The notes below the pieces were generated by a model, which was not told where the DNA came from, searched no databases, and saw nothing but the letters and a program-made list of their open reading frames with translations. A stretch of 38,392 nucleotides of DNA from positions 1 through 38,392 of the IMG/VR virus record IMGVR_UViG_3300030108_001831; one strand, written 5' to 3'. A program made the translations under genes and the position numbers. Origin of the DNA: a virus. Positions 1,989 to 38,392 of this stretch are shown here, one piece after another (positions within the stretch are counted from its first letter, which is position 1; the number at the start of each line of letters is the position of its first letter).

Positions 1989-2147
1989 ATGTCTATGTAT
2001 CGTATTGTTCATAAAGAATCAGGAAAAGAAGCAACAGTTGAAGTAAAAGGTTTTGATAGATCAGAAATGATAAAACAAGCTAGCGAAAAAATAGGCATAG
2101 AAATAAGCCCCACCGAAGTAGGGCATATTCGCATACTACCTCTTTAG
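1989..2147 (+). CDS. 52-aa protein of unknown function
   Basis: ATG at 1989 follows CAGGAGAGAA, a good ribosome-binding site. The product starts MSMYRIVHKESGKEATVEVK and has a helix-forming middle (SEMIKQASEKIGIEI) and an end GHIRILPL, which suggests a small alpha/beta fold. No family is recognised. Its last 12 nt overlap the convergent YRG peptide gene on the other strand, and a minus-strand UUCG terminator hairpin lies inside its coding sequence (2107-2124), so its 3' part carries two signals. Confidence 0.6.
   Translation: MSMYRIVHKESGKEATVEVKGFDRSEMIKQASEKIGIEISPTEVGHIRILPL
2096..2124 (-). terminator. UUCG-loop terminator of the riboswitch cassette
   Basis: On the minus strand, GCCCTAC-TTCG-GTGGGGC forms a 7-bp stem (one G-U pair) closed by the very stable C(UUCG)G tetraloop, followed by TTATTTCT. 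It starts 12 nt after the stop of the 18-codon peptide. The T-tract is imperfect, but stem, loop and placement make an intrinsic terminator likely. Confidence 0.7.
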
Positions 2148-2192
2148 GATTTTTTTGTATGCTACTCCTCGATAAGTAAGGATAACTTCCAT
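2136..2192 (-). CDS. Riboswitch-controlled 18-aa YRG peptide
   Basis: The minus-strand frame encodes MEVILTYRGVAYKKILKR, preceded by GGGAGGTCTACA, a strong ribosome-binding site. The start LTYRGVxY matches the short YRG-type peptides (DUF4278-like in cyanobacteria) that characteristically lie downstream of the glutamine-binding Downstream-peptide riboswitch. The gene has its own promoter, aptamer and terminator. In cyanobacteria a glutamine riboswitch controls a small inhibitor of glutamine synthetase; whether this peptide acts on host nitrogen metabolism is inference. It is unusually short, so it could also be a trimmed leader peptide. Confidence 0.8.
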   Translation of the reverse strand: MEVILTYRGVAYKKILKR

Positions 2193-2212
2193 TGTAGACC
2201 TCCCAATGTTAG

Positions 2213-2259
2213 CGTTCCTTCAGTCACTTTGACCTACTTCCGACCATACAGGTTGAACG
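2213..2259 (-). promoter_or_regulatory. Glutamine riboswitch (Downstream-peptide / glnA type)
   Basis: On the minus strand the RNA runs CGTTCA, ACC-TGTAT-GGT, CGGAAGTAGG, GTCA-AAG-TGAC, then TGAAGGAACGC. P1 is CGTTC/GAACG, P2 is ACC/GGT and P3 is GTCA/TGAC. The joining segments CGGAAGTAGG and GAAGGAACG are the hallmark conserved sequences of glutamine aptamers. It lies 20 nt upstream of the peptide start and its ribosome-binding site, so ligand binding could control access to the site or transcription. The class is known from cyanobacteria, cyanophages and marine metagenomes. Confidence 0.92.
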
Positions 2260-2271
2260 AGTTATATATTC

Positions 2272-2300
2272 TGCATACTAAAAACACATAATGTCGTCAA
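2272..2300 (-). promoter_or_regulatory. Candidate promoter of the riboswitch cassette
   Basis: Minus-strand TTGACG (2300-2295), a 17-nt spacer, then TATGCA (2277-2272), with a second AT-rich TATATAAC just downstream. Initiation about 7 nt after the -10 would start the RNA only a few nucleotides before aptamer stem P1. The -35 is good and the -10 is weak. Confidence 0.5.
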
Positions 2301-8668: not shown

Positions 8669-8696
8669 ATCTTAACAAATGATTTTTAGTATGCAA
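8669..8696 (-). promoter_or_regulatory. Weak promoter candidate for the replication operon
   Basis: Minus-strand TTGCAT (8696-8691), a 16-nt spacer, then TAAGAT (8674-8669), 25 bp before the gene starting at 8644. The -35 is poor (3 of 6). The rest of the gene-free stretch 8697-8827 holds two TGGCCCCAAA copies and otherwise nothing I can name. Confidence 0.3.
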
Positions 8697-8787
8697 CCCC
8701 TAAATTTGCCTTTTCTTGCTCGTTTTAAAATTTCATTAAAGCCTGGATGTATTACAGTTTTGCTCGCAAATTTTGGTATTTAAAAAA

Positions 8788-37898: not shown

Positions 37899-38277
37899 TG
37901 AAGAACACAAGTACGATAAGTTTGTACACAGCAATGGTATGCCTTATGCTTATCTTGAAGTACCTATAGCATTTCTATCTGAAGAACTACCAACAGATGC
38001 AACTTGGTCGGCGAGTGAAGTAGATGATGATGGTAATTCTACTAAACAAAAAACCATAGAAGAATATGCTATATGGATTAAAAAATCTAATGATGAAACC
38101 AAAGCTATTATAGGATTAATGGCTACAGTTGCACCTACTTATCGTGTACCTAAATTTACTAAAGATGATTTACAAGATTGGGAAACTTGGTTAGATACTA
38201 AAGAACATACTATAGATACATGGCTTACTATAGAAGAACGTAACGTTTTATTGGAAACAGAAGATTATGAAAGTTAA
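37888..38277 (+). CDS. 129-aa protein following the fibre gene
   Basis: The frame starts MSVNEEHKYDKFVHSNGMPY inside the end of the fibre gene. It is acidic with several Trp (AIWIKKSNDETKAI, LQDWETWLDTKEHTIDTWL) and ends ETEDYES, the same end seen at 1-27. It may be a fibre chaperone or a fibre-tip partner because of position. No family is recognised. Confidence 0.7.
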   Translation: MSVNEEHKYDKFVHSNGMPYAYLEVPIAFLSEELPTDATWSASEVDDDGNSTKQKTIEEYAIWIKKSNDETKAIIGLMATVAPTYRVPKFTKDDLQDWETWLDTKEHTIDTWLTIEERNVLLETEDYES

Positions 38278-38392
38278 CGAATCAACAGATATAACTATAC
38301 CATTGCGTAATCTGCTATCTATTATAGGTGGAGTAGCCGTAGCAGTTATAGGTTACTTTCATATAGATGAACGTATAATGTTACTTGAGCAT
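38251..38392. repeat. Right copy of the 142-bp end repeat
   Basis: Matches 1-142 with five substitutions, at 38305, 38306, 38308, 38312 and 38315. See the left copy; together they mark closure of the genome. Confidence 0.9.
38267..38392 (+). CDS. 5' part of the membrane-anchored protein (second copy, cut by window end)
   Basis: The first 42 codons of the same gene as 17-286. All five base differences are silent (TTA/TTG, AGG/CGT, TTG/CTG and TTA/CTA). The protein is identical as far as it can be read. Confidence 0.85.
   Translation, partial: MKVNESTDITIPLRNLLSIIGGVAVAVIGYFHIDERIMLLEH

Follow-up and report, generated by a model that had tools for sequence, protein, structure and literature searches.

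Does a phage read glutamine directly through RNA at this locus, and if so, what use is an 18-residue peptide to it? A preliminary description had proposed a self-contained cassette on the minus strand, in which a promoter, a glutamine aptamer, a peptide gene and a terminator follow each other. The window, meaning the whole stretch of DNA that was analysed, is one viral record with a length of 38,392 bases. Because its ends share a 142-base repeat that is 96% identical (1–142 and 38251–38392), it is probably a complete genome, circularly permuted or terminally redundant. The phage is uncultured and probably marine; no near relative was found among named phages at the DNA level, and its capsid and terminase are only 24–33% identical to those of pelagiphages of the HTVC010P kind and of other phages.

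Late genes lie on the plus strand and run across the genome ends to about 2147, early genes occupy the minus strand between about 9308 and 2349, and the cassette sits on the minus strand where the two meet. The stop of the peptide ORF overlaps the final 12 nt of the last late-operon ORF (1989–2147, plus strand, 52 aa), placing the cassette against the late operon as first described. This convergent ORF is 86–96% conserved in four related contigs (L122, L123, L258 and L315), and since the codons for its C-terminus lie antisense to both the terminator and the last part of the peptide gene, that stretch is constrained on both strands.

The aptamer and its surrounding signals

The whole window was searched with Rfam 15 at gathering thresholds, and a single match was obtained across all families: the type-1 glutamine riboswitch aptamer (RF01739, glnA) at 2261–2209 on the minus strand, full length (1–53), scoring 48.2 bits (gathering cut-off 35) at an E-value of 1e-7. 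This is the sole RF01739 match in the record, and the related cassettes score 36–52 bits. The claim of a glutamine aptamer was therefore upheld, although only one of the two models named for it applies. RF01704 (Downstream-peptide, now Glutamine-II) had no match in a search of the window, a weak negative given that this search matched no control genome either, and gave nothing up to an E-value of 1 in a local Rfam scan; the Downstream-peptide type was rejected on this basis.

Across 10 distinct cassettes from related phages, 100% of the pair cells in the P1, P2 and P3 helices are formed, the conserved segments CGGAAGUA and GAAGGAACG are both invariant, and CGGAAGTA is conserved. P2 and P3 covary, with 6 of the 13 aptamer pairs altered on both sides and a covariation score of 0.434, compared to 0.119 for shuffled alignments and at most 0.024 for slid structures. 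Score, covariation and conservation exclude a chance match, and we infer that the window RNA binds glutamine. A weak match to the STnc100 sRNA over the terminator (25 bits, cut-off 47) was attributed to chance arising from the terminator hairpin.

The candidate sigma-70-type promoter, TTGACG-N17-TATGCA (2300–2272, minus strand), is missing from the list produced by a consensus scan, which itself expects several chance matches, and could not stand alone. Its support is comparative: in every one of the 12 loci with an autonomous cassette, the distance from TTGAC to the aptamer is exactly 41 or 39 nt. Part of this promoter region (2284–2272, minus strand) recurs as TTTTTAGTATGCA at 8680–8700 on the plus strand, near the start of the early operon and on the opposite strand from it. 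Downstream of the aptamer, the sequence has a Shine-Dalgarno GGGAGG (2204–2199, minus strand) and, after the peptide gene, a C(UUCG)G intrinsic terminator, GCCCTAC-TTCG-GTGGGGC (2124–2107, minus strand), detected by scan and by folding. With its flanks (31 nt) this stem-loop folds at −15 kcal/mol with a z-score of −5.2, its U-tract is imperfect (UUAUUUC), and its stem carries compensated changes in L122 and L123 (GUCCCAC/GUGGGAC) and in L258 (GCCCUAC/GUAGGGU). A second terminator-like hairpin, a 7 bp stem followed by TTTTT (2331–2308, minus strand; −6.9 kcal/mol, z −2.6), lies after the last early gene. The insulating terminator that had been proposed is thus present in the window, but it was not seen at the corresponding place in L122, L123 or L258, and insulation from the early operon is therefore not conserved.

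Related contigs were found via the neighbouring phosphoesterase gene and two pattern scans, and several diverged phages have a cassette of this kind at the corresponding junction. The cassette follows the phosphoesterase region on the early strand in L122, L123, L258 and L133 and is on that strand too, adjoining the same early gene, in L315; it occupies the same junction on the other strand in L125, L126, L128 and L130, and follows late genes in L240 and L310. It is absent from L124, L127, L129 and L131, and is therefore dispensable. Together with the TTGAC spacing and the terminator, this recurrence bears out the proposal of a self-contained unit, and from these comparisons we regard the cassette as accessory. 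Two of the contigs that lack it (L129:7040–7460 and L131:1518–2110) have a promoter-like stretch, TTTAGTATTTATATACTGG, with a terminator directly after, which would fit either a deletion of aptamer and peptide or the making of a short RNA. In a further type of cassette, represented by L004, there is no TTGAC at promoter distance and another gene lies close in front, which suggests that these are probably inside an operon. L258 and L315 are two divergent copies of the junction, each with a cassette, in one contig of 62,102 bases, which was probably assembled from two related phage genomes.

The YRG peptide and the proposed control of its translation

The peptide is encoded by an 18-codon ORF, MEVILTYRGVAYKKILKR (2192–2136, minus strand). 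Synonymous changes exceed non-synonymous ones between the window and L122 (5 to 0), between the divergent copies L258 and L315 of the one contig (5 to 0), between L125 and L310 (7 to 0) and between L125 and L287 (13 to 2), while a single residue, with 2 non-synonymous changes, separates the L123 peptide from that of the window. From this synonymous excess, the gene is very probably translated and kept by selection. Within the window clade synonymous changes occur only in codons 6–13; codons 2–5 are part of a hairpin around the start codon, and the 3′ end of the gene overlaps the convergent late ORF. Peptides of the related phages have 16–20 residues and form three groups, MEVIL(T/Y/N)YRG..., MEVTLNYRG... 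and M(E/KE/RE)(V/I)TLVYRG..., among which M, E, L, Y, R, G, Y and K are invariant. The earlier impression that the peptide is among the shortest of its class agrees with these lengths and with the 17–100 aa published for Downstream-peptide ORFs (PMC2864571). The core of the peptide is also found behind a different leader in another phage group (L004, L018, L210, L217 and L226).

The peptide contains the YRG unit of DUF4278 (LxYRGxxY), and an HMM built on 78 such units, taken from loci in cyanobacteria, gives it 19.2 bits, a score that none of 20,000 shuffled sequences reached (best 14.7). Judged by these matches, it is one single YRG unit of DUF4278, as the name YRG peptide had implied. The Pfam model of DUF4278 (PF14105) has 57 positions, and 18 aa is too short to scan with it; relatives of 20 aa gave no Pfam match, and the larger riboswitch-controlled YRG proteins of phages match Pfam DUF4278 and PHROGs 545 and 5049, both without assigned function. 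No solved structure of DUF4278 was found by sequence. An AlphaFold model of a phage protein with three YRG units has three beta-hairpins, but at a confidence too low for a fold search (pLDDT 67, pTM 0.20).

The expression platform is a hairpin (2220–2178, minus strand) in which the 3′ strand of the aptamer, AAGGAACGCU, pairs with codons 2–5. The AUG is held in its CAUUG/CAAUG stem and the Shine-Dalgarno sequence in its loop. In 10 sequences 95.8% of the hairpin's cells are paired and one pair alternates between UA and GC; where the left arm reads CAUG in place of CAUUG, the right arm is altered to match (L123, L258, L133 and L287). In the window clade the lower stem (AAGGA/UCCUU) is made of the conserved aptamer 3′ strand (AAGGA, GCU) and codons 2–5, and withdrawing the aptamer strand weakens the hairpin from −13.3 to −4.9 kcal/mol. 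This predicted competition between hairpin and aptamer fits a glutamine-ON translational switch. Against it, the computed accessibility of the AUG is near zero in both states, and only the stability of the hairpin shifts. Since 11–12% of synonymous versions of codons 2–5 fold at least as stably in this clade, selection on their pairing is only suggested. The sister clade (L125, L128, L130 and L310) has a hairpin that is stable without the aptamer strand (−10.1 vs −9.7 kcal/mol), so the switch as described fails there in computation and the ON model does not clearly work. For the group of L004, L210 and L226, which has a different leader, folding of the aptamer raises computed AUG accessibility in five of five loci. 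Overall, the folding predictions make the glutamine-ON direction likely.

Known systems, other viral peptides and the host

The closest known arrangement is the 5′ UTR of Synechocystis gifB, a type-1 riboswitch (glnA motif, RF01739) that shares the aptamer consensus and structure and likewise precedes a coding sequence for DUF4278/YRG. The window cassette differs from it in being phage-borne, in having its own terminator and a hairpin that holds the AUG in a stem and draws on coding sequence, and in encoding an 18-aa product that lacks the C-terminal segment of IF17. Glutamine-II riboswitches (RF01704; Yfr6 and others in marine picocyanobacteria) likewise govern very short ORFs, but belong to an aptamer type that has no match in the window.

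Among phages, YRG proteins are found in the named cyanophages S-PM2, P-SSM7, S-CREM1 and DSL-LC03. In S-CREM1 (OP535465) an annotated 'glnA' riboswitch is directly upstream of a hypothetical YRG protein, as in the window, and a glutamine riboswitch before a phage YRG peptide is thus already known in kind; by our own search, none of the leaders of the named-cyanophage YRG genes reached the RF01739 cut-off. These cyanophage proteins (S-CREM1, S-PM2 and P-SSM7; PHROGs 5049 and 545) differ from the window peptide in having 40–56 aa and in consisting of more than a single YRG unit, and they belong to T4-like phages. What is new is the cassette with a single YRG unit and its own promoter and terminator; we found no description in the literature of a stand-alone, very small riboswitch-YRG version. 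In the S-CREM1 protein (L500:1001–1147) an N-terminal YRG unit is joined to NWLALIRAQIEKENKLKEAQLAMAMK, which resembles short peptides that stand alone behind the riboswitch elsewhere (L012 and L006). The sequences suggest that YRG modules and modules of the NWLALIRAQIEKENKLKEAQLAMAMK type have been split and joined.

Two exact-pattern scans of viral contigs gave at least 120 matches each. Among the matches listed there are 141 links between an aptamer and an ORF, with 118 distinct peptides of which 44 carry YRG, the remainder falling into about ten other short families. These families, of 26–81 aa, are unrelated, stand directly behind viral glutamine aptamers and mostly belong to no known family; they include peptides of the NWQL..., FTHLF..., WxDFCRK..., NFKWDL... 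and TKYQ...NPYYP types, and others (e.g., L006, L020, L023, L039, L047 and L024).

The riboswitch is not proof of a cyanobacterial host, because genomes of marine Alphaproteobacteria also carry RF01739. In a record titled Pelagibacteraceae (L424:3412–4906), tandem RF01739 aptamers precede an ammonium-transporter-like ORF (438 aa, read from the sequence), and L381, L387, L411, L476 and L490 are likewise records from uncultured marine Alphaproteobacteria in which tandem aptamers stand before ORFs resembling either ammonium transporters or glutamine synthetase (476 aa, likewise read from the sequence). These tandem aptamers contrast with a review in which the glutamine riboswitch is restricted to cyanobacteria, and are in accord with the environmental associations reported earlier (PMC2864571). 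Glutamine riboswitches have also been reported in the SAR11 and OM43 phages Mosig and Melnitz, which infect streamlined heterotrophs; in Melnitz the riboswitch is tied to tmRNA (ssrA), whereas in the window it is tied to the YRG peptide (PMC9004378).

What the cassette may do

We think it fairly probable that the cassette is a self-contained glutamine-responsive gene, switched on by glutamine, whose product is a lone-YRG effector peptide acting in trans. Transcription would start a few bases before the aptamer. When glutamine is lacking, the aptamer 3′ strand AAGGAACGCU would pair with codons 2–5 and extend the AUG-bearing hairpin, blocking translation; when glutamine is bound, P1 and the binding site would take up the same strand, the hairpin would lose its lower stem, the Shine-Dalgarno sequence in the loop would become usable and the 18-aa peptide would be made, with the UUCG hairpin ending the message. 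The single YRG unit, a predicted beta-hairpin, may then act as an effector at plentiful glutamine, presumably on a host protein, the most likely target being the partner bound by the YRG domains of host nitrogen-control proteins.

The ON reading follows cyanobacteria, where glutamine riboswitches mainly precede DUF4278 genes and the type-1 and type-2 riboswitches tested are both ON with glutamine (PMC6316151). There is a smaller chance that the same riboswitch and peptide work in the other direction, with glutamine turning translation OFF or the hairpin being a constant dampener, and with the peptide produced under glutamine scarcity. For this direction, the sister clade allows P1 and the hairpin to form together, and the tandem aptamers of marine Alphaproteobacteria, standing before glnA and amtB, are expected to be glutamine-OFF; the cyanobacterial results speak against this direction, as does the competition of aptamer and sequestering hairpin for one strand in the window clade. 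It is very unlikely that the RNA rather than the peptide matters, the ORF being a leader peptide with a regulatory role or a relic without coding function. In favour of this are the tiny size of the gene and the absence of the entire cassette from some relatives, but the synonymous excess is strong, the same peptide core occurs behind a different leader, and the window ORF has no glutamine codons and no same-strand gene between it and the terminator, which led us to reject leader-peptide attenuation.

We considered it similarly improbable that the peptide is a phage-made glutamine synthetase inhibitor of the IF7/IF17 type. In its favour, the inactivating factor IF17 has DUF4278 as its N-terminal part, and genes of the gifB type are preceded by glutamine riboswitches (PMC6316151), as is also the case in the cyanobacterial loci examined here. 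However, inhibition does not require the YRG part (PMC6316151), and a profile of the inhibiting segment (ARxLM...NRQxSMLxR) has no match in the window peptide (E-value 5.3, negative score). Neither this peptide nor the other riboswitch-controlled phage peptides gave a significant match, and mimicry of IF7/IF17 was rejected. As the peptide corresponds to the dispensable part of IF17 and lacks the inhibiting segment, inhibition by the known route appears unlikely, and for the same reason we say only that it may control host nitrogen. A more specific form of the effector explanation, which we hold to be rather unlikely but better placed than an inhibitor, is that a YRG-only peptide serves as a decoy against host YRG-domain proteins, keeping nitrogen assimilation running despite glutamine. 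It would combine the same signal with the same domain minus the inhibiting segment, and SAR11 cells raise expression of glnA, gltBD and amt upon infection (PMC12753301), though the idea is conjectural and the host may lack IF proteins.

More broadly, and tentatively, glutamine riboswitches could gate unrelated microproteins (YRG and about ten other families) in many aquatic, largely marine phages of several lineages. RNA-based glutamine sensing would then be a general means by which phages steer the nitrogen use of their hosts, and the window peptide would be the smallest of the effectors, perhaps acting as a decoy for YRG regulators of the host. The locus offers a compact, testable system in which a phage would read a host metabolite directly through RNA, and since the unit measures about 200 bp from promoter to terminator and occurs on either strand in relatives, it should be transferable to a laboratory strain for assay. 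It also bears on the role of the YRG/DUF4278 domain, as selection keeps a single unit of 16–20 residues in these phages in the absence of the remaining protein, and through it the pairing of riboswitch and YRG may extend to phages of non-cyanobacterial hosts.
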